Shown here in pieces: positions 13,925 to 51,094 of a stretch of 64,000 bases of DNA (position 1 is the first letter of the stretch; each line of letters opens with the position of its first letter). Below the pieces are notes generated by a model. That model saw only the letters and a list, made by a program, of their open reading frames with translations, made no database searches and was not told where the DNA came from. The DNA is from Candidatus Zhuqueibacterota bacterium (GTDB taxonomy: Bacteria; Zhuqueibacterota; Zhuqueibacteria; Residuimicrobiales; Oceaniaggregativiventaceae): assembly GCA_014728085.1 (NCBI GenBank), contig WJMF01000208.1, positions 62,001 through 126,000 of the forward strand, read 5' to 3'. A program made the position numbers and the translations under genes.

Positions 13925-13968
13925 AAAACAGAACCCCATAGTATTTTTGCCGATGGGTCTGTTATTTT
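13925..13968. other. Imperfect intergenic hairpin upstream of the first S8 peptidase
   Basis: aacagaacccca ... tgggtctgtt pairs with two unpaired bases. Flanked by ataaa and attttac. Confidence 0.35.
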
Positions 13969-14036
13969 ACCTGCTGGTACAATTTTTGGATAACTGTAAC
14001 AGAATGGTTTCATCAACCCCCTTTTTGAGGATTATT

Positions 14037-17000
14037 ATGAAATTGGCAAGGATTCTATTTTTTCTGATCTTTTTTGTAATGTTTACATCGGGATCATTTG
14101 CACAGATCGAATTAAATGAAAACAGCAAAGAACAAATCAGAAATTTAGCTGAAAAACTCGAACAGAAATTAAGGCAACAAAAATCAGAGGCATTACAGCA
14201 AGCTCAGTCGAAGGGTTATGTGGTACGGGCTTTTTTGCGTTCCGGTAAATTGGTCGAGTTAATGAAGGTTATGGATGGTTTTCCCCTCTATTACGCAACC
14301 GATAATTTAATAGCAGCGCAGACCGTTTCCACGGATTCGGTTTGGAACCAGGGGTATACGGGCTCCGGTATGCTCGTCGGTGAATGGGACGGGGGAGATG
14401 TGCGAGCCAGCCATCAGGAGCTGAGCGGTCGCGTCGTGGATGGAGATGAGGTAACCTCTCTGGTGCCTCACTCGACTCAGGTGGCGGGGGTTCTCATCGC
14501 TGCAGGCGTGAATTCAAATGCGAGGGGAATGGCTTCAGCGGCAACCCTTCATGCCTATGACTGGAATCAGGATACCGCGGAGATGGCTTTGGCTGCGGCG
14601 GATGACGGATTGATGCTATCCAACCATTCGTATGGATTAATCACCGGCTGGAGTTATGGTGATTATCTGGGGTTGGGCGAGGCGAATTGGTACTGGTTCG
14701 GAGATGTGGATGTGGATGTTAATGAATCGGTTTATTTCGGCTGGTATGGAGGGCAAGCTCAGACCATTGATGATCTTGCCTTTACCGCTCCATATTATCT
14801 CATGGTATATGCCGCCGGCAATGACCGCGGAGAGGGCCCGGCGGGCGCGGTTAACCATTATGCATGGAGCAGTGCTCTGGGAAGCTGGGTTTGGTTCGAG
14901 TCCGTGTCCCGGCCCGTGGATGGCGCGTATGATTGTTTGAGCGGTGCAAGTGTGGCTAAAAACAATTTGGTCGTAGGCGCTGTTGATGATATACCGGGAG
15001 GGTATACACAAGTCAGCGACGTTGTCATGACGGATTTTAGCTGTTGGGGGGCGGTTGATGATGGCCGCATTAAACCCGACCTGGTCGGGAACGGCGTTGA
15101 GCTCTGGACACCTCATTCCGGTACGGATGCCTCTTATGCGCTGGGCACCGGAACGTCCTTTGCCGCTCCCAACGTGACCGGTTCTTTGGTTCTCTTGCAG
15201 GCGTATTACCACTCGAGTCATAATCCCGATTGGATGAAATCTGCAACCTTAAAAGCATTGTCGATTCATACTGCAGATAAAGCCGGCGCAAATAGCGGTC
15301 CCGATTATCAATTCGGCTGGGGCTTGCTCAACACCAAATCGGCTTATGATCATATCCAAAAAGACATATCTCGGGGTCACCATATACAGGAACACAGTCT
15401 CAATGACGGAGAAAGCATTTCTCTCAGTTACTATGCATCGGGCGATGAGGATATCAAGGTTACCATGGTATGGACCGATCCTGCAGCAACGCCGGTTGAT
15501 CCCAACCAGCTCGACAATCCATCTCCGGTGCTGATTAATGACCTGGATATTATTCTGCAAAATGCAGCGATTCAATATATGCCCTGGGTTCTGGACAAAG
15601 ACAATCCGTCAAATGCGGCCACGACCGGGGATAATACAGTCGATAATGTCGAGCAGGTTTTTATTTCCAACCCCGCTCCCGGAATCTATACCCTTCAAAT
15701 TACCCATAAAGGCACGCTTGAAAATGGCAGTCAGGATTTTTCTCTGGTGTTGTCCGGCATGTATGATGCTGATTTTGGCGATGCGCCGGACTCACCCTAT
15801 CCGACGCTGTTGTCTAATAACGGTGCCCGTCATCAACTCGACAATCAAACCTATCTGGGATCACATGTTGATGCAGAACTTGATGCTTCACCGGACACCC
15901 ATAGCCTGGGAGATGACAGGGCCGGGACATCCGATGACGAGGATGGCATTGTCTTCGATTCTGCACTGGTACCCGGCACAACGGCAAATATAACCGTAAC
16001 AGCTTCAGTGGCCGGTAAATTGAATGCCTGGATCGATTTTGATCTCAATGGAGTATGGGATGGTGATGAACAGATTTTCACCGATGAAGATCTGGTTAGC
16101 GGCGCCAACACAAAAACGTTTACCGTTCCGGCAGACGCTGTTCTGGATATTACTTTTGCACGGTTCCGTTTCAATCTCAGTGGCGGGCTTTTGGCGTCAG
16201 GCAATGCATCTGAAGGGGAAGTGGAAGATTACCAGGTCAGCATTCAGAGTGGCGGTGAAGCGGATTTTGATTTGGACGGAATCCCCAATGCCGCGGAAGG
16301 GGAAAACGATCGTGATAGCGATGGCGTTCCCAACAACCTGGATTACGATCCCACCGGATATTTTTATGATCAATCCAGCGGTGAAATTATCGCCGGCGGA
16401 CAAATTACGGTTGATCCGTCTTCACCAGTGACTATCGCGGAAGATGGATCCGAAGGATTTTATCAATTCTACACCGATGGTACGCCGGGAAGCTATGCGC
16501 TGCAGGTTGTTCCTCCCCCCAACTATGAGCTCAGTACAACCTGTTTAGCTTCAACGGGCTCGTTTGATCCGACCGGATTATCCAATCCGGTGGTTTTGGG
16601 AGCAGGAGAAAACGACGATACAGGATTTATTGGCAATTACGATTGTGCCGACAATACCTATTATTTTTCCTTTGACCTGGCCGCAGGAGACCCGATTATT
16701 ATCAACAATAATATTCCGTTAAACTATCTGATTCCGATAGAACTTTCCTCATTTACGGCAGAATGCGTTAACGGGACGGTTGAATTGCAGTGGATCACGC
16801 AGAGCGAGACGGAAAACATGGGTTTTTATTTGTTCCGGGCCGAATCGCAAGACGGAAATTATCAACGCATCACATCGACTTTAATATCCGGCCGGGGCAA
16901 TAGTCAAAGCGTAAACCGCTATGAATATACAGATCAAAACGTTCAGAATGGTCAAATCTATTATTATCAGCTTGCGGATATCGATTTTCATGGCCGCATG

Positions 17001-17318
17001 ACCAAACATAAAGCTGTCTCTGTTACTGTTGAGGGACCGGAGACCTTTTTGTTGCGGCAAAATTATCCCAATCCTTTTAATCCTGAAACCGTGATTGAAT
17101 ATAGCTTGTCCGGCTTTGGCGATTGTGACTTGATCATATATAATATAAAGGGACAGGTGGTTAGAACGCTGGTGTCCGAATATCAACAGCCGGGTTCTTA
17201 TAAAGTGATGTGGAATGGACGGGACGACAGCGGCAGGATTCTGCCGAGTGGCGTATATCTGTACAAATTATTATTTAAGCAACACGAAGAAACGAGGAAA
17301 ATGCATTTTCTCAGATAA
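14037..17318 (+). CDS. Secreted S8 subtilisin-like peptidase with GEVED domain, calcium-binding-like linker and FlgD-like C-terminal sorting domain
   Basis: Signal peptide from ATG 14037. Candidate triad D (GEWDGGDVR), H (PHSTQVAG), S (GTGTSFAAPNV). DFGDAPDSPYPTLLSNNGARHQL...EGEVEDYQ GEVED signature. LRQNYPNPFNPETVIEY...SGVYLYKLLF C-terminus. Confidence 0.9.
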   Translation: MKLARILFFLIFFVMFTSGSFAQIELNENSKEQIRNLAEKLEQKLRQQKSEALQQAQSKGYVVRAFLRSGKLVELMKVMDGFPLYYATDNLIAAQTVSTDSVWNQGYTGSGMLVGEWDGGDVRASHQELSGRVVDGDEVTSLVPHSTQVAGVLIAAGVNSNARGMASAATLHAYDWNQDTAEMALAAADDGLMLSNHSYGLITGWSYGDYLGLGEANWYWFGDVDVDVNESVYFGWYGGQAQTIDDLAFTAPYYLMVYAAGNDRGEGPAGAVNHYAWSSALGSWVWFESVSRPVDGAYDCLSGASVAKNNLVVGAVDDIPGGYTQVSDVVMTDFSCWGAVDDGRIKPDLVGNGVELWTPHSGTDASYALGTGTSFAAPNVTGSLVLLQAYYHSSHNPDWMKSATLKALSIHTADKAGANSGPDYQFGWGLLNTKSAYDHIQKDISRGHHIQEHSLNDGESISLSYYASGDEDIKVTMVWTDPAATPVDPNQLDNPSPVLINDLDIILQNAAIQYMPWVLDKDNPSNAATTGDNTVDNVEQVFISNPAPGIYTLQITHKGTLENGSQDFSLVLSGMYDADFGDAPDSPYPTLLSNNGARHQLDNQTYLGSHVDAELDASPDTHSLGDDRAGTSDDEDGIVFDSALVPGTTANITVTASVAGKLNAWIDFDLNGVWDGDEQIFTDEDLVSGANTKTFTVPADAVLDITFARFRFNLSGGLLASGNASEGEVEDYQVSIQSGGEADFDLDGIPNAAEGENDRDSDGVPNNLDYDPTGYFYDQSSGEIIAGGQITVDPSSPVTIAEDGSEGFYQFYTDGTPGSYALQVVPPPNYELSTTCLASTGSFDPTGLSNPVVLGAGENDDTGFIGNYDCADNTYYFSFDLAAGDPIIINNNIPLNYLIPIELSSFTAECVNGTVELQWITQSETENMGFYLFRAESQDGNYQRITSTLISGRGNSQSVNRYEYTDQNVQNGQIYYYQLADIDFHGRMTKHKAVSVTVEGPETFLLRQNYPNPFNPETVIEYSLSGFGDCDLIIYNIKGQVVRTLVSEYQQPGSYKVMWNGRDDSGRILPSGVYLYKLLFKQHEETRKMHFLR

Positions 17319-17340
17319 ACCGATACGGGATAGAGCGAAC

Positions 17341-20300
17341 ATGGAAAGATATGGCACAGAGAGACGAACGGTTCTTTACCTATACATAATTTTGGTTTTT
17401 AATATTCTGATTTTTTGGCATCCGTCTGTTGCAGCAACGACGGACCTGGAAAAAGTCTCCAGGGAAATAACGAAAACCCATGACGCGAAAAAAGAGCGGG
17501 CAAGGAATTTTGCGATCAGCAGCAGTTTTCCGATACGCAAAACATTGCCCACAGACCGGGTTATTGAAATTCAGGATGTCCTTTTGAACCGGCCTCTTTA
17601 TTATATAACAACGAATCTTACAGCAGCCCAAACCATTTCAACGTTACAGCTCTGGTCAACCGGCAACGGCGGTACGGGAGATTATAATTTGGACGGTGAG
17701 GGTATGATTATAGCAATGTGGGACGAAGGAGGCGTACGATTCAGCCACCGGGAACTCGTTGGCCGGGTACAAAAAGGGGACGACACGCCTCATCTATCCA
17801 CCCATGCAACTCAGGTTGCCGGAACCCTGATTGCCCGGGGATACAATGAAAACGCCAGAGGCATGGCCCCTCTGGCAACATTGGAAGCTTTTGATTGGAA
17901 TAATGACCTGGCAGAGATGGCGGCAATGGCGGCTGCAACTTTCAGCGATCCATCCCGGGGATTGCTTGTATCCAATCACTCCTATAGCTATTTGCTGGGA
18001 TGGGAGTGGAATTATTATGGTGACAACAGATGGGTGTGGTTTGGTGACAGCCGCATCAGCACCGACGAAGATTATCTTTTCGGCTTTTATGATGATTTTG
18101 CCCAAAGTGTGGATAAATTGGCCTGTGCGGCGCCTTACTATTTAATGGTTTTTTCCGCCGGCAATGATCGCAAGGATCTTGGTCCTGTTGAAGAATCCAC
18201 ACATTGGTATTTCGATTGGGACGCCATCCCCCCGAAACGGCAAGAGTCCGACATCAGCCGTCAGTATGATGGCCTTTATGATTGTATTTCCAATGGCGGT
18301 GCCATAGCAAAGAATAGCTTGACGGTTGGTGCTGTTGAAGGATTAGAGCAGGGTTATTCCGGTCCGAATGATGTATTGATGTCCTGGTTTAGTGCCTGGG
18401 GACCCGCAGATGACGGCCGTATCAAGCCGGATGTAGTCGCGGATGGCGTTGGTTTGATCACAACCGGTGCCGGGAGTGATTATGACTATACAACGGTCAA
18501 TGGTACCTCGTTTGCCGCCCCTGGCGTGGTCGGTTCACTGGCTTTATTGCAAGAGTATTATCAACGCCTTCATGCCCGCCGAATGTTGTCTTCCACTTTG
18601 AAAGCCCTGGTCATCCATACAGCGGATGAAGCCGGAAAAGCACCGGGACCCGATTATGCTTTTGGTTGGGGATTAATGAACACGAAAAAAGCAGCAGACC
18701 TGATTGAACAGGATTCCCGCTATATGATTCCCATTCAGGAGCGGAAACTTGAGCAGTATCGGGCCGATACGTTGCGATATTATTGCAGCGGAGAAACGCC
18801 GGTCATAGTGACGCTGACATGGACAGACCCGGCCGGCGTGCCTGTGGAACCACAGCTCGATCCGTCAGCTGCAATGCTGATCAATGATCTGGACCTGACA
18901 ATTGAAAATACAAAAGATATCTTTTATCCCTGGATTCTCGACCCTGCCTTTCCGGAGCAAAAGGCACAAACCGGAATGAATTCAGTTGATAACGTCGAGC
19001 AGGTCGTCATATCCGCCCCTGAAAAAGGTTTTTATACCATTACCATTTATCACAAAGACAATCTGTACGCGGGCGAGCAACCCTATTCCCTGATTATTAC
19101 AGGCTTGTCCAGTATCGATATGGGTAACGCTCCGGTCGACAGGTATCCAACCCTGTTGGACCGTAACGGAGCCTACCATCTGTTGAATCCCGATATCTTT
19201 TTGGGAAATAAAATAGAGAGGGATCAGGTTGAACCCGTTGCCGGACCGAGCGGGGATGATGCACTGAAAAGCGATAATGACGGGGTTATCTTCAGCCCCT
19301 ATATGACCCCTGGCTGTCAGCAACACATAAAGATTCTTGTTCAGGGCCAGGGATTTTTGTACGGCTGGATGGATTTCAATGCAGATGGTGACTGGCAGGA
19401 TCCGGGTGAACAAATTTTCAATGCGGTTCCGGCGACGACTGGTCAGCAGTTATATTCTCTTGCGCTGCCCGAAAATGCTGCGACAGGAAAGAGCTTTGCC
19501 CGCTTTAGGTATACCTCACAAAAGGGGTTGGATTTTAGAGGCCCGGCCTGCGATGGAGAAGTCGAAGATTATCAGTATGTCATATACGCCGACCAGGATC
19601 ATGATGGTATTCCCAATATACTTGAAGAGCAGGATCGCGATCAAAACGGTGTGATCGATTCCCTGCAATATACAGCGAGCGGCTATATATATGACGAGTT
19701 GACTGGTAGACCTGTTATAGGCGGAAAAGTCGAACTGTTCTCGCCGGATGGTGAGTTGATTCCTCTGATTGCAGACGGGCAGAGAGGATTTTATAACTTT
19801 GGCATGTTGCCTGATCCTGGTGAATATACGCTTAAATTTACACCACCGGTGGGCTATCGCCCAAGTCAAACCTGCCATTATATGAATGTGTTTCAACCTG
19901 AAAGCGAACTGTCATTTCTTGGCAGGGACCTGTCAATGGATTCGCAAACATTATCATCGCATCGGTGTGAAGAGAATCCGTATGCCCTGACGTTGCGTCT
20001 AACAGAGCCCGCCTTTATTTCCTTAAACAATATGCCCGTTAGCGGGCTGGTGCCTGTTGAACTCTCTTCCTTTACGGCTGAATGCAGCAATGGGATGGTC
20101 TATTTAAAATGGACAACCCGATCTGAAACCGAGAATCTTGGATTTCATCTCTTTAGAACATCAAAGGAGCGCAAGCGCATAACCACGGCTATGATTCCCG
20201 GTGCCGGCAACAGCCAAACCGGGCGATCGTACGAGTATATCGATAAAGATATCAAAGCAAACGAAAATTATCTCTATGAATTAATAGATGTTGATTTTCA

Positions 20301-20628
20301 GGGTTATCAAACAGTTCACGGGCCTGTAGAGATCCATACAAAACCACCGGTTCAATTTGAACTGGAGCAAAATTATCCCAATCCATTCAATCCTCAAACC
20401 AGGATAGTCTATCATCTCGACAAAGAAGGTCATTGCGAATTGACGATTTACAATCTCAATGGGCAGGTCATTAAAAAACTGGCTGACGGTTTTTATAAAG
20501 CGGGATCCCATGTAACAGAGTGGAACGGCAGAGATGAAGACGGACAAATCGTACCCAGCGGTGTATACCTTTATAGATTAAAATTTGAAAACCGGGTAAA
20601 AACAAAAAAGATGAGTTTTATTCACTAA
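17341..20628 (+). CDS. Secreted S8 subtilisin-like peptidase, tandem paralogue of the preceding gene
   Basis: Same architecture: WDEGGVRFSHREL, THATQVAG, NGTSFAAPGV, MGNAPVDRYPTLLDRNGAYH, DGEVEDYQYV, LEQNYPNPFNPQTRIVYHL...SGVYLYRLKF. Start set to ATG 17341, downstream of the previous stop. Confidence 0.88.
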   Translation: MERYGTERRTVLYLYIILVFNILIFWHPSVAATTDLEKVSREITKTHDAKKERARNFAISSSFPIRKTLPTDRVIEIQDVLLNRPLYYITTNLTAAQTISTLQLWSTGNGGTGDYNLDGEGMIIAMWDEGGVRFSHRELVGRVQKGDDTPHLSTHATQVAGTLIARGYNENARGMAPLATLEAFDWNNDLAEMAAMAAATFSDPSRGLLVSNHSYSYLLGWEWNYYGDNRWVWFGDSRISTDEDYLFGFYDDFAQSVDKLACAAPYYLMVFSAGNDRKDLGPVEESTHWYFDWDAIPPKRQESDISRQYDGLYDCISNGGAIAKNSLTVGAVEGLEQGYSGPNDVLMSWFSAWGPADDGRIKPDVVADGVGLITTGAGSDYDYTTVNGTSFAAPGVVGSLALLQEYYQRLHARRMLSSTLKALVIHTADEAGKAPGPDYAFGWGLMNTKKAADLIEQDSRYMIPIQERKLEQYRADTLRYYCSGETPVIVTLTWTDPAGVPVEPQLDPSAAMLINDLDLTIENTKDIFYPWILDPAFPEQKAQTGMNSVDNVEQVVISAPEKGFYTITIYHKDNLYAGEQPYSLIITGLSSIDMGNAPVDRYPTLLDRNGAYHLLNPDIFLGNKIERDQVEPVAGPSGDDALKSDNDGVIFSPYMTPGCQQHIKILVQGQGFLYGWMDFNADGDWQDPGEQIFNAVPATTGQQLYSLALPENAATGKSFARFRYTSQKGLDFRGPACDGEVEDYQYVIYADQDHDGIPNILEEQDRDQNGVIDSLQYTASGYIYDELTGRPVIGGKVELFSPDGELIPLIADGQRGFYNFGMLPDPGEYTLKFTPPVGYRPSQTCHYMNVFQPESELSFLGRDLSMDSQTLSSHRCEENPYALTLRLTEPAFISLNNMPVSGLVPVELSSFTAECSNGMVYLKWTTRSETENLGFHLFRTSKERKRITTAMIPGAGNSQTGRSYEYIDKDIKANENYLYELIDVDFQGYQTVHGPVEIHTKPPVQFELEQNYPNPFNPQTRIVYHLDKEGHCELTIYNLNGQVIKKLADGFYKAGSHVTEWNGRDEDGQIVPSGVYLYRLKFENRVKTKKMSFIH

Positions 20629-20763: not shown

Positions 20764-21411
20764 ATGAAGTATAAAATAATCACATATCGTAACGGGGATT
20801 TTTGTAAAAAAGTTGCAGTTATTGGAGACATGGCTCTGTTAGACAAACCCAAAGTGGGTTTTTTTTGTTCTTCAAAATGTCCCGGAGATTTGATTCTTCA
20901 GAGTTATGATCTGGCGCAATGTTTGAGGCGTTATAATATCAGCGTTATGAGCGGCTTCCAATCTCCGGTGGAAGAGCAATGTTTTCGAGTGTTGAGCAAA
21001 GGCATGCAACCGTTGCTTTTTTGTCCGGCCCGCAATATTTCCCGTATGCGAGTGCCTGCAAAATATCGACGGTCAATCCAGCTGAACAGAATGACCATTG
21101 TCTCTCCTTTCGTCGTCGGCGTTCCCCGGGTAACGCGAGAAACAGCGTTTAAAAGGAACCATTTTATTGCCTCTGTTGCGGAGGCTGTTTTCATCGTGTA
21201 CGCATCATCATCCAGTCATACGTACCGTTTGTGTGAGGACCTTCTTTCCTCCAATGCTGACCGAATTCTGACATTTAAAAGCAAATGGAACCAGCCTTTA
21301 ATCGATTTGGGCGCAAAAGCCGTGTCGCTTGACGGGGCATTGTCCTGGTTTGATGAAAATGGTTTTGTCCAGGATACAAATCCGGATACACCAATGGGTC
21401 TTTTCGCCTGA
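20764..21411 (+). CDS. DprA/Smf-like (SLOG Rossmann) protein, divergent and stand-alone
   Basis: KVAVIGDMALLDKPKVGFFCSSKCPGDLILQSYDLAQCLRRYNISVMSGFQSPVEEQCFRVLSKGMQPLLFCPA resembles the DprA core (vrGdlsll..p.vaiVGsR...la..L...gv.vVSGlA.GiD..aH...L..G). RETAFKRNHFIASVAEAVFIVYASSSS resembles FP.RNRiIaglS..vlVvEa...SG. Confidence 0.68.
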   Translation: MKYKIITYRNGDFCKKVAVIGDMALLDKPKVGFFCSSKCPGDLILQSYDLAQCLRRYNISVMSGFQSPVEEQCFRVLSKGMQPLLFCPARNISRMRVPAKYRRSIQLNRMTIVSPFVVGVPRVTRETAFKRNHFIASVAEAVFIVYASSSSHTYRLCEDLLSSNADRILTFKSKWNQPLIDLGAKAVSLDGALSWFDENGFVQDTNPDTPMGLFA

Positions 21412-21446
21412 TTAACATAGAGGAACATCCAAACTCAGTAGAGATT

Positions 21447-24275
21447 ATGATTCAATATAGATTTTGTGATTTCTCACAAAACCTCACCGCCCTTGTTCTT
21501 GAGGACTTGCCCGATAACAGGGTTCTGATTGTATCTCCCACAGAGAATTACAAGCGTTTTTTGCAAAAGCGTTTTCAACAAAAGACAACTTTTAATCCTG
21601 TGCATGTCGTTACGATGGAAGAGCTAAAGGAAAAGATATTTTTTTCTGAAAAGCCGCTTCTAAAAGAAGAAAAGCGAACATTGGCGTTCTATGCTTCAAT
21701 GGAGCAAGAAGACAAGGGGTTTTTTAATGTAAACAATTACTTTCAGGCCATAGAGCTTGCACAGAATTTTTTCAATCTCTGGGAGGAGTTTTTTGAAGAA
21801 AGAGTCGATGAGAATTTTTTAGTCAAGCCGTTGTGGCAGTCAGAAATCTATCCCTGGCAGGCCAGAACGTATGAACGGCTCGTTAAAATAAAGCAACAGT
21901 ATAAAGCATCTATTGAACAGAGAGGATACACGGACAAGATTTTTTTATATTCACAGTCTCCCGACTTGAAGCCACTGGGAATTTATGATACCGTTGTTAT
22001 GGTGAATCAGTTTTACTATACACGGCTTGAAAAGCGTATTATCGATGAGTTTTCCGTCAGGGGCAAAACGGTGAGGATATATTATCAGCTGCCCGAGTAT
22101 TTGGTCGATAAAAACTCTCTGAAAATAAAGGACTTTACTCTTGCTGACCTGAATTGCAGACAATTTCCCGATATCGAGATTTTTGAGGCAGCCAATGATT
22201 TTATCATGACAACTGCATTGCTAAAAGAGATCGCATCCCGGAGCCCTCTTCAGGTAGTGGATGTCGACTATAACAATCCCTTTAAACCGTTCCTGTCGGC
22301 GCAAAAATTTTCACAATCATCGTTCAGTTTTGTTCAAACTTCTGTTTATCAATTTTTTCACACCCTTCATGCTCTGATCAAGTCCTTGTTATGGGAATCG
22401 CTACGACGCCGGTATTTGTGTCCGGTTGATACTCTTTTACAGGCTTTATTCAACGACATTTTTTGTTTTTATTTTTTGCGCCGGTTTTCCAGGGATCCCT
22501 CTGCTTTAAGGGATAAACTGCTTGCCCATATCTATCATCTTGTTGACAATGATGTTAAATATACGGATTTTCATCTTGAAAATATCAGGGAAGACCAGGT
22601 TAAAGAACCATTATATGCTATTTTGGATGTTGTTAAACGGTTTTCACAACTGGAATCGATGAGCGATCTGGTAGATTTAATAAATGCCGAGAACGGTGTT
22701 GATTTGCAGAAAATATTTACACATGAAGAAAGAAGCGGATCTGACCTGGTCGAACGATTTTATCAACTTTTGTTTGATTTTCAAACCGTGGAACAATTGA
22801 ATATTATAGAAAGCTGGCAGCATTATTTTTCTTCGCCTCCTGGTGCAAATCCTCATCTGGGCCTCTCGCAAGGAATACTGCGTTTGTTCCTTGACTATAT
22901 GAAAGCAAAACAGATTAAATACAACTATAAGACCGATACGTCCCGGATGCATTTTACAACCCTTTTCGATACCCGCAACATAGATTATCAAAGCCTTGCT
23001 ATTCTTAATCTCTCCGAGGGAAAAATTCCCAGCACCAGACAAATTCCATATTTGTTTACAGAAATTCAGCGGAAACGTCTGGGCTTGAAGACCTATGAGG
23101 ATATTAAGCTTTGGGAAAAGTATTACTTTTTCAGATTAATCTTTACCGCGAAAAAAGTATTTCTCTTCAGTCAGAAGAATATTGATGAAAACATACAACC
23201 CAGTTCTTTTCTGGAGGAAATCAAGCTGTGTTTAAAAGTTGATGACAGCCAGATAATACCGTTGCGGGATGAGGGATACAGAAACATTTATCAACAGTTC
23301 TTCAAAAACAAGTCACATAATATTTCCGTTCCGGCAGGGGATTTTTTTCGTATTCAGGTAGAGCCGGAAAATGATTTCCGGGATCACAGCCTTGGAATGA
23401 CCAGTTATTCTCTCAAAGATTTGCAGAATAATCCTTTTGTTTTTTATTTGCGCCATATTGCAGGAATAGAAGAGCGGCAAAAAGAGATAGAGTATGATTT
23501 TTCGCCAAAACTTATCGGCAACATTGCACATGATATTCTGAACAGATGCTGGGTTTATATACAGGACACCGACGGGGTCGCTTTGGATTTCAATCAGATC
23601 GGAGATGAGCTGATCGAACGGGCGGCGGCGGATATTCTGCAACACCATTCCTATTATTATTATAAAATTCCCCATAACCATGCGCAGCTATATTTCAACA
23701 AAATCATCATGCCGGTTATATTATACGGGATCAAGGCGTTTTTTGGTTTATTGGCTGACCTGGGATTGAGCCGTAAAGCAATTCGTATCTATGCGGAAAC
23801 AGACAGGGGTTCGTCTGAAGAGAAGACATTTCAAAAATATATCGCAAGAAAAGAAAGCCGGTTGGATATCGATGTTTTCATACGCGGACGTGCTGATCTT
23901 CGCATTGAGGATGAGTCGCGTAATGATCGTTATATCTTTGATTATAAAACCGGCGGCTATGAAAAGTCACAGCTGCTTTTTTATGAGCTATATTATTATA
24001 TCATCCGGCAACCTGAATTGTTGGAGAATGTCTTTTCCTATTTTTATTTTATATTGAAACAGGACGCAAAGTCCTTCGAGCAACTCTACCGATCCGGCAC
24101 AAACAAACAAACTTTATTTCTGGAATTCAAAAGCGCTTTAATCGATACTTTACATAAAATATCGGAAGAAGGATTTTCTTTGCCACAGCAAAAAAGTTTT
24201 CTGGTGGATTTTGCAGAAATCACCAGAAAAGATCTGTTTTTAGCCAGAAAAGAGGAAAGCGGGAAAAGTGACTGA
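21447..24275 (+). CDS. AddB-like PD-(D/E)XK nuclease with degenerate helicase-like N-terminus
   Basis: 942 aa. C-terminal nuclease motifs KLIGNIAHDIL, FIRGRADLRIED, YIFDYKTGG. No intact Walker A near the N-terminus (VLIVSPTENYKRF). Overlaps the AddA-like gene by 8 nt. Confidence 0.8.
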   Translation: MIQYRFCDFSQNLTALVLEDLPDNRVLIVSPTENYKRFLQKRFQQKTTFNPVHVVTMEELKEKIFFSEKPLLKEEKRTLAFYASMEQEDKGFFNVNNYFQAIELAQNFFNLWEEFFEERVDENFLVKPLWQSEIYPWQARTYERLVKIKQQYKASIEQRGYTDKIFLYSQSPDLKPLGIYDTVVMVNQFYYTRLEKRIIDEFSVRGKTVRIYYQLPEYLVDKNSLKIKDFTLADLNCRQFPDIEIFEAANDFIMTTALLKEIASRSPLQVVDVDYNNPFKPFLSAQKFSQSSFSFVQTSVYQFFHTLHALIKSLLWESLRRRYLCPVDTLLQALFNDIFCFYFLRRFSRDPSALRDKLLAHIYHLVDNDVKYTDFHLENIREDQVKEPLYAILDVVKRFSQLESMSDLVDLINAENGVDLQKIFTHEERSGSDLVERFYQLLFDFQTVEQLNIIESWQHYFSSPPGANPHLGLSQGILRLFLDYMKAKQIKYNYKTDTSRMHFTTLFDTRNIDYQSLAILNLSEGKIPSTRQIPYLFTEIQRKRLGLKTYEDIKLWEKYYFFRLIFTAKKVFLFSQKNIDENIQPSSFLEEIKLCLKVDDSQIIPLRDEGYRNIYQQFFKNKSHNISVPAGDFFRIQVEPENDFRDHSLGMTSYSLKDLQNNPFVFYLRHIAGIEERQKEIEYDFSPKLIGNIAHDILNRCWVYIQDTDGVALDFNQIGDELIERAAADILQHHSYYYYKIPHNHAQLYFNKIIMPVILYGIKAFFGLLADLGLSRKAIRIYAETDRGSSEEKTFQKYIARKESRLDIDVFIRGRADLRIEDESRNDRYIFDYKTGGYEKSQLLFYELYYYIIRQPELLENVFSYFYFILKQDAKSFEQLYRSGTNKQTLFLEFKSALIDTLHKISEEGFSLPQQKSFLVDFAEITRKDLFLARKEESGKSD

Positions 24276-27200
24276 AACACACTCTAGCTTAATAAAGAGA
24301 ATTATTCGCGCCAGTGCAGGTACCGGAAAAACCTACCGGTTATCACTGGAGTTTATATGGCTTTTACTGAGTTTTCGCCATCAGATTGATTTTAGTGAAA
24401 TTTTGGTTATCACCTTTACCCGTAAAGCCACGTTTGAGATACGCGAGCGTATTTTTGAACATCTCTCAAAACTCGTACAGTCCCGGGAATCTGAGGTACT
24501 GGAAAAAAATCTTTACGCACTGTATGGCATACAGATAGGTGATAACGACAGGGATTATCTCAAATCCGTATTTCAAAAGATGTTGCTGAACAAACAGCGG
24601 CTGCAAATCAGTACTATTGATTCCTTTGTCAACTCTATTTTTAAAACCGTTATTTCTCCTTACCTTGGATTTTCAAGTTTCCAGATTGTCGAAAAAATAC
24701 CAGCCGAAAACATACAAGAAATTAATGAGGTCTTGTTAAGCACTGTTTTCAGTCAGACTGCAGATGCTTCCCTGCAAAATCTTTTTTCAAGTGCTTTTTT
24801 GAAAAACATAACGGCCTACGACTCGTTTATTAAATCTATTATTTATAACCGTTGGCAATTTATGTTGTTTCCCCAAGTTGAAGAGCGATTAAGCGTTTCG
24901 AATGCGTTTCTTGAAACAACTTATCATGATTTTGTCACCGCCTACCGCCGGGTCATGTCCGACTTTGTTGATTATTTGGTAGAAGATAATATAAATAAAC
25001 CTCTGAATGAAATTTTCAAAAAAGCATATCACGACATTGTTTTCAAAAATTCAACAACAGTAAACATTGAATCGCTATTGCCTTTTATAAGCGAGCGCCT
25101 GGCGGATTCAAACTTTGTAATTGAGCATTATTCGCAATTTATCAGCGATGAGGTCTTTTGGAACGGCAGCAAAGTATTGCGCAAACAGATCTATAAAGAA
25201 CGCGCAATCGAACTCTCGGAAGCGTTACAGGAGGCTCGGCAAAAACTGGCGACTTTTTTGCTCTGCAAACTCGCCCTTCCTGAAGAGGCGAATATCCGCA
25301 AGATAGCAAATCTGATTCTGACAAAGTATGATGAAATAAAATTTCGCGATCGCATCTTAACGTTCAATGACATTACTTTTTATACCTATAAATATCTCCA
25401 CGATCCAGGCCTTTCTTTAATAGAAGGTGATTCCGTGACCAACCTCTTTTACGAGTATCTTTCAACCAGCACGCGCTTTATCCTTATTGATGAATTTCAG
25501 GATACCAGCGTCATTCAGTTTAAAATACTCATGCCGATACTGCGGGAAATTTTAAGCGGTATGGGCATAAAGGATTACGGTGGCGCCATCATCGTTGGGG
25601 ATGAAAAACAAGCGATCTATGGCTGGCGCGGCGGCGAGCGGGATCTGTTATTGAAGATGCCGGAGATTGTCGGGCCGGCGGAAGAAATCGATTTGGATAC
25701 CAACTATCGAAGCCATCCCGATATCATCCGCTTCGTGAACCAGGTTTTTTCAAATCAGGAGTTGCATAAGGCATTACAGGACCGGGACATGGTTTGGCCC
25801 TTTACGCCGGTTCAGGGGGCTAAAAGTGACGTTCCAGGTTATGTTTCTATGCGCTGTAAGAATGTTTCCGCTAGTCAGGAGGGAAACAATACCAGTCAAA
25901 ATCCGATCCAGGATTTTATCGAAAATTTATTCATACCTTATGCAAAGCAATATCCTGAGCAATTATTAAGTACGGTTATTCTGGCGCGGCGAAATGATGA
26001 ATTGAAAAGTTTAGCCGACTTTTTAGACCAGCACGGGATTGAATATGTTTATGAATCAACCAGTTCGATATTCGAACACCGCGCCGTTAAACCGGTCATG
26101 TACCTTTTGTCCTATTTTGTCTATCGGGACATTTCCGATTTTTTGAAATTTTTACGCTCTGATTTTGTTTTGTTGCCAAGCGATCAGCTTAAGGATATCT
26201 TGCTCCGGTATAGAGATTTCAGAGCTCCCGGCAACCCGGATTTTTGGCAATCCATCCAACATATTCCTGTGGTGCAAAAGATCAATTGCCTCTACAGGTG
26301 TGGTGCGGACGAGCGCTACAGGCAGAATGATCAAAAAGATATTTTAACGTTTGTCAGACAAATATACGAAGAGTTTGCCGTAACCGAGTTTTTTAGATTA
26401 GATAATGACTTGAAAAATATCAATTCTTTTCTCGGCAAAATTGCTTTGTTTCAATACCAGGTGAAGGATTATGCAAAGACATTGTCCGGATTCTTGCAAT
26501 ATTGTCGTGATAACAGCGAAAGAGAAAAATTTCGGCAGGAAGGACTTGAGGAGAAAAATGCTGTAAAATTAATGACCATCCATCAGTCAAAAGGCCTTGA
26601 ATTCGAAACCGTTTTTCTACTTTGGCGGTTGTCTATGGGAACACCGGCTTCTCAGAAAAAGGTGAAATATTATTTGCGATATAATGATCATTATACCCGC
26701 CTCGAAGATTTTTTTCTGACTTTTAATTATGACAATATTCTGGCCTGCAGCGAACGAAAAGGTCTCTATGAAGAGAGCGCCAGGCGGGATGAAATTGAAA
26801 CGCTGAACACCTTTTACGTTGCCATGACCCGGGCCATATCCAATCTATATCTTTATTTTTCCTACAGAAAAAAAAGCGGAATCGATTCTTTTTTAAAAGA
26901 CATAGAAAGAAAAGAGTCTCCTGCGGTTCAGGATCTTCTTTTTCGCTCTGTCTACGCTTGTTTTCAGGCTTCTGGATGGGATGAACAGACCAGCCATATT
27001 GTAACTGCTTCACAGGGGGAAAGCCCCGACCTGAAAACCGGCAAAGATGAGACGGAAGCCGCTTTTCAGGAGGATTTTGATTTTATAAATGAATTTTTGG
27101 ATACGGATCAATTCAAGTATTTTGACTTTAGTTCAGAGCCACAATATCTTGATTTTAAATCGGTTTTTCTCAAGCATAAAAGCGTTATTCTGGGGAATAT

Positions 27201-27609
27201 TGTTCATTATTACTTGTCATTCATATGGTATGGACATGCCGAGGAGCGGCACCAGGGTTTGTTAAAGACCCTGGAGTTTTATGGCACTCTGGTTTCCAAA
27301 GCGGAAATAGAGCGTCTTGTCGAAAAGACAAATCTTTTCATCGACCGCCACCCCGGGCTTTTCTCGGAAAGCTGGCAGGTTTTTACTGAATATACGGTTT
27401 TTTCTCCGCAGGGACGGGAATACCGGATTGACCGGCTGTTGATAGACAAAATTGAAAAAAAGGTATTGATTGTAGATTATAAAACCGGTCAGGTCCCCGA
27501 AGAAAAAGATCAATTGCAGCAATACAAGCAAGCGATTGCCGACATTCCCTATATCCGGCAAAATCAGTTTAAAATTGAAACCTGTTTTTACAGGCCGGAA
27601 ATCGAATAG
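24268..27609 (+). CDS. AddA/RecB-like UvrD-family helicase with C-terminal nuclease domain
   Basis: Walker A RASAGTGKTYRLSLEFIWLL, ITFTRKATFEIRERI, LIDEFQDTS, VGDEKQAIYGWRGGE, YRSHPDIIRFVN, IHQSKGLEFETVFL, YVAMTRA, nuclease motif RIDRLLIDKIEKKVLIVDYKTGQ. Confidence 0.92.
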   Translation: MTETHSSLIKRIIRASAGTGKTYRLSLEFIWLLLSFRHQIDFSEILVITFTRKATFEIRERIFEHLSKLVQSRESEVLEKNLYALYGIQIGDNDRDYLKSVFQKMLLNKQRLQISTIDSFVNSIFKTVISPYLGFSSFQIVEKIPAENIQEINEVLLSTVFSQTADASLQNLFSSAFLKNITAYDSFIKSIIYNRWQFMLFPQVEERLSVSNAFLETTYHDFVTAYRRVMSDFVDYLVEDNINKPLNEIFKKAYHDIVFKNSTTVNIESLLPFISERLADSNFVIEHYSQFISDEVFWNGSKVLRKQIYKERAIELSEALQEARQKLATFLLCKLALPEEANIRKIANLILTKYDEIKFRDRILTFNDITFYTYKYLHDPGLSLIEGDSVTNLFYEYLSTSTRFILIDEFQDTSVIQFKILMPILREILSGMGIKDYGGAIIVGDEKQAIYGWRGGERDLLLKMPEIVGPAEEIDLDTNYRSHPDIIRFVNQVFSNQELHKALQDRDMVWPFTPVQGAKSDVPGYVSMRCKNVSASQEGNNTSQNPIQDFIENLFIPYAKQYPEQLLSTVILARRNDELKSLADFLDQHGIEYVYESTSSIFEHRAVKPVMYLLSYFVYRDISDFLKFLRSDFVLLPSDQLKDILLRYRDFRAPGNPDFWQSIQHIPVVQKINCLYRCGADERYRQNDQKDILTFVRQIYEEFAVTEFFRLDNDLKNINSFLGKIALFQYQVKDYAKTLSGFLQYCRDNSEREKFRQEGLEEKNAVKLMTIHQSKGLEFETVFLLWRLSMGTPASQKKVKYYLRYNDHYTRLEDFFLTFNYDNILACSERKGLYEESARRDEIETLNTFYVAMTRAISNLYLYFSYRKKSGIDSFLKDIERKESPAVQDLLFRSVYACFQASGWDEQTSHIVTASQGESPDLKTGKDETEAAFQEDFDFINEFLDTDQFKYFDFSSEPQYLDFKSVFLKHKSVILGNIVHYYLSFIWYGHAEERHQGLLKTLEFYGTLVSKAEIERLVEKTNLFIDRHPGLFSESWQVFTEYTVFSPQGREYRIDRLLIDKIEKKVLIVDYKTGQVPEEKDQLQQYKQAIADIPYIRQNQFKIETCFYRPEIE

Positions 27610-27627: not shown

Positions 27628-30600
27628 TTACGCTCTTTTGCTTTTCTTTGCTTGTCGTTTTTGCAGGAATCTTTCTAATGCGGTATAGATGACGGGAACA
27701 ACAATCAAGGTTAAAACCGTAGCAACCATCAATCCGCCCATAACGGCTTTAGCCATGGGTGACCACGATTCCCCGCTTGCACCCAGTCCCAGTGCCAGCG
27801 GAAACATAGCGAGAATGGTGGTCAGTGCGGTCATGAGAACCGGCCGCATTCGTACCGTGCCCGCTTCTACAACCGCTTCAAGAAGCTCCATACCCCGGTC
27901 CCGAAGCTGGTTCATATAATCGACCAGCACAATACCATTGTTTACAACGATACCGACCAGCATAATAATTCCGATCAGAGCCATTACACTCAGATCCGTA
28001 CCGGTCAACAGGAGTGCGAAAGCCACTCCGATGATCGAGAGGGGAATCGTGAAGAGAATCACAAACGGATCCAGGAATGATTCGAACTGTGATGCCATGA
28101 CCATGTAGGTTAAGACAATTGCAACCATCATGGCAAGGCCGAGGTACATAAAGGATTCTTGTTGATCTTCCGCTTCTCCACCGATCTCGGTGCGAAATTC
28201 ATTGGGCAGCGGATAGGATTTGAGTACGGAGCGGACCTCATCTGTGACGCTTTTCAAGTCGCGTCCGGAGATATTGATGGCCAACGAGACATATCGTTCC
28301 TGATCCTCGCGTCTGATTTCCTGCGGTGCCAGGGTATATTTGACATCGGCAATTGCCCGCAGCGGCACTTGTCTGCCGGCGGGTGTCATGATGTAGATGT
28401 TTTCAATGTCCTCTTTATCGCTTCTGCCTTCCTTGTCCAGCTGTACGCGAATGTCGAACTCATCGCCGCCTTCCCGGTAGCGAGTAACCACGTTGCCCAG
28501 AATGCTGGTGCTGACAATGTTTCCAACATAGGCGGTGGAAAGCCCCAGATCGGCAATCAATTGGCGGTCAAAATCTATAACGAGCTCGGGTCTTGGATTT
28601 TCTACGCTGAGCTGGGTAAAAACAATTCCGTTTATTTTTTCAACTCGTTCCTGTAACTCCTCGGCGACGATCTCGGCTCTTTCGATATCGTGTCCGATAA
28701 TCTTGATTGAAATATCTCCTTCTGAACCGAAGAGATTTTGTTCACCGCGATCCTCAAAAGCAATGGTAACATCCGGGAGTTTGTTTAAAAGCGGTCGCAA
28801 GCTGTCGGCGATTTCAAACTCTGTCCGGTCTCTTTTTTCCAGATTGGAAAGTCTTATGGTAATATCTCCTTCGGATGAGGCTCTGGAGGAGAAGAGAGAC
28901 ATCATGCCTTCTCCCTGACCAAAATTAGAGTAGACGATCTGTTGTTCGGGAACTTCTCGTTCGATGATGTTATTGATGTGGTGAATGGTTTTATCCATTT
29001 CTTCCAGGCTGGTCCCCGGCGTTCGGTCCACTGACACGGCTAAAAAACCGTCATCGCCTTCAGGCAGAAATTCTCCCCCCAGATTAAAAAGGATAACGAT
29101 GGAGAGGAAAAACAACAGCATAGCGCCCCAAAACACACTTTTTCGGTGATGCAGGGACCATTTCAGGGCGATCGTGTAATAGTATTGCAGACCATCAACC
29201 CAGGATTGCAGGCGGTTACCGACTTTATGCCAAAACCCTTGCTTTGTCTTGCGGGCAGGGCCTTTGAGCAACCTCGATGTCAGTAGCGGAATCAGGGTCA
29301 GAGCGACAAGAAGTGAAACCGCAAGGGAAAAACAAATTGTGATCACCATTTCTTTGAACATTTCACCGGCAAGTCCGGGGACGAATAAGATGGGCACAAA
29401 AACCGACAATGTGGTCAGAGTAGAGGCGGTAATGGCCATGGCCACTTCTCCGGCGCCCTTGTTGGCCGCGGTTTTTGCCTCTTCACCGCTCTCCTTAAAT
29501 CTGAAAATACTTTCCAGTACCACGATAGAGTTATCCACCAGCAGCCCAACCGCCAGCGCCAATCCCGCCATGGAAATGATATTCAGGGTTAAATCGGCCT
29601 GGTCCATGACGGCAAAGGTTACAATAATGGAGACCGGAATTGAAATTGCGACGATCAATGAACTGCGGATGTTTCTCAAAAAGAACAAAAGCACCAGAAA
29701 AGCAAGAATAATTGCGGTTCTGGCAGTACTGCCCAGGTTTGAGATGGAGCGTTCAATAAATTCTGATTGATCCCAGAATATTTCCAATTCAACGCCCGGC
29801 GGAATCTCGGACTCGATTTGAGCGAATTTGCCGACGACCGCTTTACAAACCTGAACGGTGTTGGCATCGGATTGTTTTTGTACCATGAGCATGACAGCGG
29901 GCTTGTCATTCATCCAGACCCGTTGTCTCTGTTCCTTGAACCCATCGACAACATTTGCAACGTCTTTTACGCGAATGACCGAGCCATTAACGGTGGCGAT
30001 ATTGGTATTGGCGATTTCTTCGATGTTGTCAAATTCTCCGGCGGCTTGAACCGTAAACTCCTGTTTTTCATTATCAATCCAGCCCGAGGCAATCTGTAAA
30101 TTGTTCGCCTGAAGAGCCGCAGAGACCTGTTGAATGCTGAGGTGATGAGCTCTTAATTGTTGAGGATCGATCAGGATGCGAATTTCGCGTTCCATTCCAC
30201 CAGAGGTAAATGCTGATGCGACACCACCAATTCGTTCGATACGTGGTTCGATATCGTGCTCCGAGATGTAGCGCAGTTCGGCCAATCCGTGCAGATTTGA
30301 GGTGACAGCAAGAAAAAGAATGGGCTGCATGGAAGGATCAAACGCAAAGACCAGAGGCTCGCTGGCATCAGCAGGCAAAAAATCGCGGATAAAATCGAGC
30401 TGGTTTCGGATATTGATTTCGGCCTGATCCATATCCGTACCCCAATCAAATTCCAGGGTTACGATAGAGAGTCCCTGGGATGTGGTAGAGGATACGGTTT
30501 CGACGTTTTCCACCGTTGCCACCGATTCCTCGATCGGCCTGGTGATAACCGTCTCGATATCATAGGGTCCGACACCGGTGTATTGCGTAATCACAGAAAT

Positions 30601-30732
30601 AACCGGGAATTCCAGTTTTGGGTATAAATCGAGTTTAAGACGTGCAAGTGAAAAAAGGCCAAAACCGACCACGATCAAATATAGCATTATAAAGGTAACG
30701 CCCCTTCGGACGGCGGTTTCAGTAAGTTTCAT
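27628..30732 (-). CDS. RND efflux transporter permease (HAE1/AcrB-like)
   Basis: 1034 aa: RGVTFIMLYLIVVGFGLFSLARLKLDLYPKLEFPVISV, ETVITRPIEE, AGLALAVGLLVDNSIVVLESI, GIIMLVGIVVNNGIVLVDY. Confidence 0.95.
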   Translation of the reverse strand: MKLTETAVRRGVTFIMLYLIVVGFGLFSLARLKLDLYPKLEFPVISVITQYTGVGPYDIETVITRPIEESVATVENVETVSSTTSQGLSIVTLEFDWGTDMDQAEINIRNQLDFIRDFLPADASEPLVFAFDPSMQPILFLAVTSNLHGLAELRYISEHDIEPRIERIGGVASAFTSGGMEREIRILIDPQQLRAHHLSIQQVSAALQANNLQIASGWIDNEKQEFTVQAAGEFDNIEEIANTNIATVNGSVIRVKDVANVVDGFKEQRQRVWMNDKPAVMLMVQKQSDANTVQVCKAVVGKFAQIESEIPPGVELEIFWDQSEFIERSISNLGSTARTAIILAFLVLLFFLRNIRSSLIVAISIPVSIIVTFAVMDQADLTLNIISMAGLALAVGLLVDNSIVVLESIFRFKESGEEAKTAANKGAGEVAMAITASTLTTLSVFVPILFVPGLAGEMFKEMVITICFSLAVSLLVALTLIPLLTSRLLKGPARKTKQGFWHKVGNRLQSWVDGLQYYYTIALKWSLHHRKSVFWGAMLLFFLSIVILFNLGGEFLPEGDDGFLAVSVDRTPGTSLEEMDKTIHHINNIIEREVPEQQIVYSNFGQGEGMMSLFSSRASSEGDITIRLSNLEKRDRTEFEIADSLRPLLNKLPDVTIAFEDRGEQNLFGSEGDISIKIIGHDIERAEIVAEELQERVEKINGIVFTQLSVENPRPELVIDFDRQLIADLGLSTAYVGNIVSTSILGNVVTRYREGGDEFDIRVQLDKEGRSDKEDIENIYIMTPAGRQVPLRAIADVKYTLAPQEIRREDQERYVSLAINISGRDLKSVTDEVRSVLKSYPLPNEFRTEIGGEAEDQQESFMYLGLAMMVAIVLTYMVMASQFESFLDPFVILFTIPLSIIGVAFALLLTGTDLSVMALIGIIMLVGIVVNNGIVLVDYMNQLRDRGMELLEAVVEAGTVRMRPVLMTALTTILAMFPLALGLGASGESWSPMAKAVMGGLMVATVLTLIVVPVIYTALERFLQKRQAKKSKRA

Positions 30733-31850
30733 GATTGATCATCCTCCCCGATAATTTGTATCGGTGTTCTATCGTGAAGATTGTTTTGCCCTTCTACAAC
30801 CATTTTTTCACCGACCTGAATACCAGCGTTTACCGCAATGTTTTTGTGGTTGACGTATACAACATCCAGCTTTCTTTGCTGAACCGTGCTGTCGTTCTCG
30901 GTGACGAAGACATAATAATTTTTAATGATAATATCTTCTCCCTTTTCTTTTCTCATGGAGGTGTTTTCAATGGTTGCATATCTCGGCACCACAATGACGT
31001 CATTGATGATACCCGTGATGACCTCTACCCGGGCGAACATTCCCGGTTTTAATTTTTTTGCCGGATTGTCGATAAGCACATCAATTTCCGCCATTCTCGT
31101 CAGGGGATCGAGCACCGGGCTTATTTTGGTGACTTTCCCTTCAAAGGATTCTTTCGGATAACTCTTTACGGAAATTTTTGCAGTCTGCCCCAAGGCCAGT
31201 TTCCCCAAATCTTTTTCGGTGGCATCGAATTCAATTTTGACGCGGTCCATTTGCACGATGGTTACAATCGGCATGGCCGGATTTGCCATATCTCCTACAT
31301 CGTAGTTGCGTTTTCCAATGATTCCCGAGATTGGAGCTGTGATTTTACTGTCCTTCAGACTGCTTTGAGCGCTTTTTACGGCTGCCTGCGCCTGTTCAAG
31401 CGATGCCTTTGCTGCTTCATATTGCGTTTTAATGGCATCATATTGTTGTTTGCTCATTGCATTTTCAGCATACAGGCGATTGGCGCGGTCATATTCTATT
31501 TGTGCATTGGCGGTCTGAGCCCGAGCCGCGGCAAGCGCGGCCCTGGCCTGGCGAACCGCCTGTTCGATGGTTTCCGCAAAGATTTCTGCGATCAAATCTC
31601 CCTTTTTTATCCGGTCGCCAACATCGACATAAAGGGATTGAATACGATCGGGGACCTTGGAAAAGACATTTACAGAAAACTCTGCTTTGATATCGCCGTT
31701 ATAATCCAGGCTCTTTGTGACCTGACCCAGATTGACCTTTTCCACCCGAACGGGTACTTTGCTGGTCTGATTAGACGTGGTATCAGATTGTTGACAAGCA
31801 AAACCGAGCAGGGATGCGATCATTATCAGGCTTTTACATGTTTTTTTCAT
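30729..31850 (-). CDS. RND efflux periplasmic adaptor (membrane fusion protein), lipoprotein
   Basis: Lipobox SLLGFAC. VGDRIKKGDLIAEI, coiled-coil ARAALAAARAQTANAQIEYDRANRLY, APISGIIGKRNYDVGD. 4-nt overlap with the RND permease gene. Confidence 0.92.
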   Translation of the reverse strand: MKKTCKSLIMIASLLGFACQQSDTTSNQTSKVPVRVEKVNLGQVTKSLDYNGDIKAEFSVNVFSKVPDRIQSLYVDVGDRIKKGDLIAEIFAETIEQAVRQARAALAAARAQTANAQIEYDRANRLYAENAMSKQQYDAIKTQYEAAKASLEQAQAAVKSAQSSLKDSKITAPISGIIGKRNYDVGDMANPAMPIVTIVQMDRVKIEFDATEKDLGKLALGQTAKISVKSYPKESFEGKVTKISPVLDPLTRMAEIDVLIDNPAKKLKPGMFARVEVITGIINDVIVVPRYATIENTSMRKEKGEDIIIKNYYVFVTENDSTVQQRKLDVVYVNHKNIAVNAGIQVGEKMVVEGQNNLHDRTPIQIIGEDDQS

Positions 31851-31881
31851 TTTCTCGTTATCTCCTTTGTGCTCTGATTTA

Positions 31882-33249
31882 TTAAAGAATTTCCTTTAAA
31901 TTTCCGGTTACTTTGCGCAATTGGTATCTGGCCATCTGATGTTCATAAACGGACGAAGCATAATTCACGCGGGCACGATTCAACGCCAGTTGAGCGTTTA
32001 GTACATCAAGCTGTGTGCTTGCGCCTTCTTCGTACATCAAGGTGGCCAGTCGCAAGGACTCTTCCGCCAATCCCACGGATTCAGCGGCGGCGAGATATTT
32101 CTCTTTTGCCTCCCTGAATTTATTATAGGCAACCTCTACTTCTGCCAGGACACCGTCTCTTACCTGTTTTTCCGTATCCAGCATGATGCGGTAATCGAGC
32201 TGTGATTTCTGGTACTGTTTGAGGTTTTTGAAACCGTTGAATAAAGGTATTTGCAGGCTTATGGCAGAGGTAAAGCCTTTGCTAAAGTCTTCGTCTGTAA
32301 ACTTGTAATCATTTCGCATCGCCATTTTTGAATAGTCTGTCTGGAAAAACAGTTTGGGCAAAAAATTACTCCTGGCGATGGTTATGCTTTTTTTGCTGAT
32401 ATATTTTTGTTCCAGCAACGCGTGCATTTCAGGCCTGTTTTCGAGCGCCATGTTTTGCAGGGTATCCAATGGCATGCTGCCAAAGGGATCTTGTTCATAC
32501 ATCAAAGCACCCTGAATGATAAAGTTCACATCTTTTTGCAATCCCAAAACATTTCGTAAACGTGTCAATGACAGTTGGTGGTTGTTTCGGGCTGATATCA
32601 GTTCGGGTTTGAGATTGGCAACCTCGACTTTTGCCCGCATTTGATCGAATCCGGATGCGGTTCCCGCTTTGTATTTCTTATCGACCATATCAAAATTCGC
32701 TTCTGCCTGTTCGAGCGCTTTTTGAGTGACTTTGCTCAATTCTTCTGTCAATAAACAGCCGTAAAAGGCATCGCTGACATCATAGATAAGCTGCTGGCGA
32801 ATGCTCGAATAATTCTTTTCAGCAGCTCTTTTGGCTGCATAGGCTATTTTTACACCGGCGATTCCGGCACCGCCGAGGAAAAGCGGCTGAGTAAGCGTGG
32901 CACCATAGGTAAACGTGTTTTCAAGGCCAAATGATATTCTAACATAATCCGGCATTCCCGGAGGGGCCTGAGGTCCCATCATCTGCTTGATAAAATTGGG
33001 AATAGTGGTTTCCTGGATATCCCAGGCGTGCTGAAAATTGACATTGCCGTTCAGGCTGGGCAGTATGCCCGAATAAGCCTCCCAAACCCCGGCTTTTGTT
33101 TTTTTATACTCTTTTTCCGCCATCTGTAATTCAGGATTGTTGTCAAAGGCAATGGACATGCTGTTTTCCAGCGTCAACACCCTTGGTTCCTGTGTCCGGG
33201 CGGAAACAATGAATAATAAAATCGTCAATAAAATGTTTATGGTACGCAT
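31882..33249 (-). CDS. TolC-family outer membrane efflux protein
   Basis: Signal peptide, LTLENSMSIAFDNNPELQMAEKEYKKTKAGVWEAYSGILPSLNGN, LNAQLALNRARVNYASSVYEHQMARYQL. Confidence 0.92.
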   Translation of the reverse strand: MRTINILLTILLFIVSARTQEPRVLTLENSMSIAFDNNPELQMAEKEYKKTKAGVWEAYSGILPSLNGNVNFQHAWDIQETTIPNFIKQMMGPQAPPGMPDYVRISFGLENTFTYGATLTQPLFLGGAGIAGVKIAYAAKRAAEKNYSSIRQQLIYDVSDAFYGCLLTEELSKVTQKALEQAEANFDMVDKKYKAGTASGFDQMRAKVEVANLKPELISARNNHQLSLTRLRNVLGLQKDVNFIIQGALMYEQDPFGSMPLDTLQNMALENRPEMHALLEQKYISKKSITIARSNFLPKLFFQTDYSKMAMRNDYKFTDEDFSKGFTSAISLQIPLFNGFKNLKQYQKSQLDYRIMLDTEKQVRDGVLAEVEVAYNKFREAKEKYLAAAESVGLAEESLRLATLMYEEGASTQLDVLNAQLALNRARVNYASSVYEHQMARYQLRKVTGNLKEIL

Positions 33250-33265
33250 TTAATCCTCCAAGGCG

Positions 33266-33859
33266 TTATTCATTCAAACCACGAAATAGTAATTCTATCA
33301 CTTCATCCGATATTTCTTCCGGCGATTTCATGTCATCATTATTCAGATATTTGCGAACATAATGAATCAATACGGCTCCGATTATATCAATGGCCAGTAC
33401 GGGATTAACCCGGGGGCCGAATTCTCCTGAATCTATTCCTTCCTGAATCAATCCCTTAAAGAGATTTCGATGCGTTTCTATCTTGTCTTCGAACTCCTTT
33501 GTCACCGGGAATTTTGTCGAAGAGGTATTTAAAAGCAGAAAAAAACGCGAAAAGTCCGGGTAGATTTGTGTCAGGGTTAGTCTTTTCTGCATAATGATTT
33601 TCAGCTTTTCTCTGAAGGAGATCTCTTCATCGAGCGCTTGCTTTATGATTTCTCCTCCATGATTGAGTCCGGTTTCGAGCAGTTGTTTATAAATACCTTC
33701 TTTGTTTTCGAAATAATAATATATCATGGGTTTGGATACACCGGAGTGTTCTGATATTTCGCGCATGGATACGCCGTTATATCCTTTTTCAGCAAACAAA
33801 TGGGCGGCGACAAGAAAGATTTTGTTTTTGGTATCGGTATCTGAATTTATATCATGCAT
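33266..33859 (-). CDS. TetR/AcrR family transcriptional regulator
   Basis: HTH: KIFLVAAHLFAEKGYNGVSMREISEHSGVSKPMIYYYFENKEGIYKQLLE. Confidence 0.95.
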   Translation of the reverse strand: MHDINSDTDTKNKIFLVAAHLFAEKGYNGVSMREISEHSGVSKPMIYYYFENKEGIYKQLLETGLNHGGEIIKQALDEEISFREKLKIIMQKRLTLTQIYPDFSRFFLLLNTSSTKFPVTKEFEDKIETHRNLFKGLIQEGIDSGEFGPRVNPVLAIDIIGAVLIHYVRKYLNNDDMKSPEEISDEVIELLFRGLNE

Positions 33860-51085: not shown

Positions 51086-51094
51086 TTGTCTATT

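Follow-up and report, generated by a model that had tools for sequence, protein, structure and literature searches.

The window, a 64,000-nt stretch of a genome of candidate division KSB1, carries three co-directional genes for a DprA-like protein, AddB, and AddA, and our preferred reading, to which we give a probability of roughly 45%, is that the DprA-like protein is functionally coupled with AddAB in one KSB1 family. Since its relatives elsewhere are found mostly in phage-defence operons, the DprA-like protein gives the impression of a helper that was borrowed and does not load RecA. DprA relatives have no settled role in bacteria that are not known to be competent. If true, a conserved link of AddAB with a DprA-like protein that does not load RecA, combined with the membership of its relatives in restriction-like defence operons, would provide a testable case of one sensor common to break repair and defence.

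The locus and its AddBA pair

In the source genome (5.19 Mb, 97.9% complete), the DprA-like gene is flanked by an S8 peptidase-like gene and addB. The locus is laid out as follows.

20764..21411, + strand: DprA-like single-domain SLOG/Rossmann gene, ATG to TGA, 215 aa plus stop
21412..21446, + strand: intergenic gap of exactly 35 nt between the DprA-like gene and addB, before the addB ATG at 21447
21447..24275, + strand: addB-like gene, 942 aa, inactive helicase part and C-terminal PD-(D/E)XK nuclease
23886..23954, + strand: AddB nuclease core GRADLRIE...DYKTG; all 18 orthologues carry D817 and DYKTG
24268..27609, + strand: addA-like gene, 1113 aa, GTG start, UvrD/RecB-type helicase and C-terminal nuclease
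24307..24333, + strand: AddA Walker A, RASAGTGKT
25489..25506, + strand: AddA Walker B, DEFQDT
27424..27489, + strand: AddA nuclease core RIDRL...DYKTG

The coordinates, the 35-nt gap, and the 8-nt overlap between the end of addB (24275) and the GTG of addA (24268) agree with the original prediction, which had counted 216 aa for the first protein instead of 215 aa and a stop codon.

The second and third genes are an ordinary housekeeping AddBA pair of the shorter type, each present as a single copy in the genome. B. subtilis-type AddB contains Fe-S cluster cysteines and a Walker A motif. The window AddB matched PF12705 (E 6e-12) in a profile search, and the best Foldseek match of its AF2 model (pLDDT 85.7) was B. 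subtilis AddB (4cei_B, E 6.9e-20). No Walker A was found in AddB across 18 orthologues; the last 320 residues contain one Cys, and no cysteine that could belong to an Fe-S cluster is conserved. AddA contains the UvrD helicase domains PF00580 and PF13361 and gave profile matches to AddA and RecB structures. The two proteins had been proposed to be an AddB-like PD-(D/E)XK protein without Walker A and an AddA-like helicase-nuclease, and these assignments were borne out by the PF12705 and 4cei_B matches and by the Walker A, DEFQDT, and DYKTG motifs of the list. An assignment of AddA as GajB was considered and rejected; the matches represent generic UvrD similarity, and GajA is not adjacent.

Two further groups of genes were observed around the cluster. 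Two S8-type peptidase genes lie in tandem at 13947-20628 of the window, the first with GEVED and C-terminal sorting-like domains (FlgD_ig, Por_Secre_tail). Beside addA, an RND efflux operon on the - strand (27628-33859) encodes a pump, an adaptor, a TolC-like protein, and a TetR regulator.

Gene order and phylogeny in KSB1

The recurrence of the Smf-like gene beside addAB in relatives, as envisaged in the original prediction, was found in the window's family, where the order DprA-like-addB-addA is present in four of four genomes from three genera at 33-39% protein identity. The junction between the DprA-like gene and addB is 35 nt in the window, a 4-nt ATGA overlap in G001, 40 nt in G002, and 20 nt in G003. 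The conservation of the cluster in this family is not due to chance, and judging from the gene spacing the three genes are probably co-transcribed there.

It is also possible, albeit less probable than coupling, that the DprA-like gene is a hitch-hiker of synteny, with a role unrelated to AddAB and an adjacency that represents an unrearranged region in one family. In this family the synteny extends over the whole neighbourhood, and the four genomes also share the unrelated, divergently oriented RND efflux operon beside addA; because this operon is as well conserved as the DprA-like gene, synteny alone cannot demonstrate coupling with AddAB, and the adjacency may be functionally meaningless. 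In the sister family the DprA-like gene is present in six of six genomes (L047-L052; G009, G013, G015, G011, G004, G008) and is unlinked to addBA; the long gene adjoins mutY in four of them, 44-192 nt downstream, and lies near a ferritin gene, identified by eye, in two. Furthermore, at least 11 related genomes, and several other families, have addBA without this DprA-like gene. Against this explanation, the genes are closely spaced in each of the four genomes of the window's family, with an ATGA overlap in G001, at a protein identity of only 33-39%. In addition, DNA-repair genes account for two of the three chromosomal contexts, a post hoc observation. The tight junctions and the recurring repair-gene neighbours (addBA, mutY) suggest a DNA-repair role for the KSB1 DprA-like gene.

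In a phylogenetic tree, in which the canonical DprA outgroup had too long a branch to be used for rooting, the copies of the window's family (f1) formed one clade (95*). The tree in which the two KSB1 families (f1 and f2) were held together was 23 lnL units better, and a single clade was not rejected (p-AU 0.87). In contrast, a tree that grouped the KSB1 chromosomal copies with the short copies from the defence operons of G016 and G004 was rejected (p-AU 0.019). On the basis of these tree tests, the chromosomal KSB1 copies were probably inherited vertically from one ancestor, and the defence copies present in the same order probably entered separately.

Fold and binding residues of the DprA-like protein

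The product of the first gene is a DprA-superfamily protein, but not a canonical DprA. It matched PF02481 with an E value of 4.5e-5 (23.2 bits; cut-off 29.6) and scored 22.8 bits against TIGR00732 dprA, below the 191-bit cut-off. The AF2 model (pLDDT 94.0) consists of one domain only; its top Foldseek matches were HpDprA (5mll, TM 0.75) and SpDprA (3uqz), and ShosA (8zva) was also among the matches. When the profile of a 79-sequence alignment was compared with the PDB, DprA was the meaningful match, and a designed repeat protein scored higher through repeated short matches. Thus, both the DprA/SLOG fold and the divergence from full-length DprA that had been proposed for this protein were confirmed, and the second, canonical dprA whose presence elsewhere in the genome had been raised as a question does exist, as a separate full-length gene at G000:C66 (261 bits with PF02481).

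The protein belongs to a broad, divergent, and uncharacterised subfamily that extends across many phyla and has the signature F[CS]SxxCP[GA] … SGFHSPVEKE … CPAR … RN. Invariant or nearly invariant residues in 79 sequences include C35, S36, P40, D49, G64, F65, S67, P68, and E70, as well as A89, R90, R96, R109, R122, R131, and N132. According to the alignment, most of the conserved residues would lie in post-strand loops, on the side where Rossmann folds usually bind their ligands. The motifs of the window protein are listed below.

20863..20886, + strand: FCSSKCPG motif at the DprA GSR position; Cys at the GSR Gly in 80 of 86 rows, Ser in 86 of 86, Arg replaced (mostly V/A/S/T)
20950..20973, + strand: SGFQSPVE (consensus SGFHSPVEKE) at the DprA SGLARGID position; all 79 sequences carry G64, F65, and E70
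21022..21033, + strand: CPAR motif, its A89 and R90 conserved to 90% or more across 79 sequences
21154..21159, + strand: RN motif, common to canonical DprA (Hp Arg143); R in 82 and N in 83 of 86 rows

The replacement of the GSR motif by FCSSK and the change of the binding surface had both been correctly anticipated. However, as judged from the alignment, FCSSK is the consensus of the family and no peculiarity of the window copy.

We next consider whether the protein delivers RecA to AddAB-made ssDNA, as canonical DprA does with transforming DNA, an explanation that we regard as unlikely. In its favour are the AddAB partner, the DprA fold with its RN motif, and a C-terminal segment (N..L...GA) resembling that of canonical DprA. 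S. pneumoniae DprA binds ssDNA through R115 and a lysine patch and contacts RecA through E235, D243, and E265 (PMC4066776); in H. pylori DprA the corresponding work points to R52, K137, and R143, with HpR52 as the counterpart of SpR115 (PMC4489622). The SpR115/HpR52 position, an invariant Arg in canonical DprA, is Ser in the window protein, and R is found there in only 12 of 86 family rows. At Sp K119, K144, K175, and K225 the window protein has Gly, Ser, Pro, and Ser, and none of these lysines is kept, while Arg is found at K202. At the RecA-contact sites, the residues are Glu for E235, Arg for D243, and Leu for E265; no member of this triad is conserved across the family or in the KSB1 clade, RN (HpR143) alone being kept. 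Because the ssDNA Arg and the RecA-contact triad are not conserved, RecA loading by the DprA route appears unlikely from the sequences, and DNA may be bound via another surface. The genome also already encodes its canonical DprA and RecO, the recO gene being located in the same window (51086-51880). The coupled end-processing and RecA-loading module put forward in the original prediction is therefore not upheld by these residues and genes.

Relatives outside KSB1 and comparison with known systems

A genome scan yielded 142 DprA-like relatives, of which 80 were kept; these come from Chloroflexota, Verrucomicrobiota, Thermodesulfobacteriota, Nitrospirota, Pseudomonadota, Bacteroidota, and other groups. 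Among the 75 loci that lie outside the two KSB1 families, 42 encode a PLD-SNF2 helicase and/or an Eco57I-type methylase, and 26 encode both, many of the remaining loci having little sequence upstream. The methylases examined matched PADLOC PDLC03628 with about 900-1150 bits. In these defence-type operons the DprA-like gene is often the last one and follows a variable gene, which may encode Schlafen-AlbA/RecG-C, YhcG nuclease, DUF3644, RhuM, an AbiEii-like ATPase, GmrSD-C, MazF, PIN, or Mrr-N; a 4-nt overlap with the preceding gene is common. Thus composed, the widespread PLD-SNF2/Eco57I-methylase/DprA-like operon has the appearance of a defence system of the restriction-like type. Outside the window's family, the relatives' loci contained no AddA or AddB homologue, and tblastn searches of plasmids and phages with two family members as queries gave no matches. 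The papers that we found describe no arrangement of DprA with AddAB and none with Eco57I in defence, nor do they describe the wider operon, in which a PLD-SNF2 helicase and an Eco57I-type methylase are combined with an exchangeable gene and the DprA-like gene.

Operons in which the PLD-SNF2 helicase and the Eco57I-type methylase are accompanied by a short DprA-like gene and by a defence-type gene that varies were seen at L053 (G016:C60, 618-9073), L054 (G004:C185, 111-10373), L091, L104, L125, L131, and others. At L054, which belongs to a KSB1 genome, a pair read by eye as DarT-like and macro-domain DarG-like lies at 8069-9747, just upstream of the short DprA-like gene. At L096 (3303-4640), the DprA-like domain is found in a 445-aa ORF downstream of an AbiEii-type ATPase gene, which may be a fusion or a start-site artefact.

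DprA homologues take part in a DprA-PRTase defence system, and ShosTA and RqlHI use them as antitoxins (PMC9122126, PMC4670107). Although these homologues and the mostly defence-type operons of its relatives favour a dedicated anti-phage module in which the SLOG protein would be the sensor and AddAB the effector, such a module is improbable at this locus, where AddAB is the sole genomic copy and occurs widely across the order, the cluster is vertically stable in the window's family, and no defence genes lie nearby. Neither a methylase nor a PLD helicase adjoins the locus, and the genome has only a weak methylase match (29.7 bits). Accordingly, the suggestion of a DNA-defence module is not supported for the window cluster, with its single housekeeping AddAB, but fits the wider family, most of whose other members are found in restriction-like operons.

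Returning to functional coupling with AddAB, we propose that the DprA-like accessory protein would use its remodelled Rossmann pocket to sense nucleic acid or a small ligand and would modulate or mark DNA ends handled by AddAB. DprA-style RecA loading would form no part of this activity, as the protein has lost the contacts known for ssDNA and RecA. Elsewhere in bacteria, the same sensor-type protein may be the final subunit encoded in restriction-like PLD-helicase/methylase operons. A broader and rather doubtful extension is that one DprA-like SLOG sensor family is a helper common to two unrelated DNA-attacking machineries, these operons and the housekeeping AddAB of KSB1, licensing or restraining both on particular DNA ends or a nucleotide signal.

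Compared with canonical DprA (TIGR00732, PF02481; 3uqz, 5mll), the protein shares the Rossmann/SLOG core and the RN motif, and the KSB1 copies share the N..L...GA segment, but it is without the SAM domain and the C-terminal winged-helix domain, and the GSR Arg, the basic patch, and the RecA triad are not conserved in its family. B. subtilis AddAB (4cei/3u4q) has the same fold, addB-addA order, two nuclease domains, and AddA helicase motifs as the window pair, whereas the window AddB is shorter and without Walker A and conserved Fe-S cysteines. The PADLOC PsyrA model matched all 79 family members with 37-53 bits, including the window protein with 42.7 bits; it gave canonical DprAs the higher scores of 89-125 bits. 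Because the match is thus not specific, we did not take it as evidence of PsyrTA and do not assign these proteins to PsyrA. Points in common with PsyrA/RqlI and ShosA, which are DprA-like antitoxins or defence proteins, may be seen in this unspecific match and in the presence of ShosA 8zva among the fold matches; the window locus is without a RecQ-PRTase or PRTase partner gene. Finally, the DprA-like subunit of the PLD-SNF2/Eco57I-methylase operon shares its subfamily and motifs with the window protein; the methylase, helicase, and variable defence genes accompany it there, whereas addBA or mutY is found beside the KSB1 copies.
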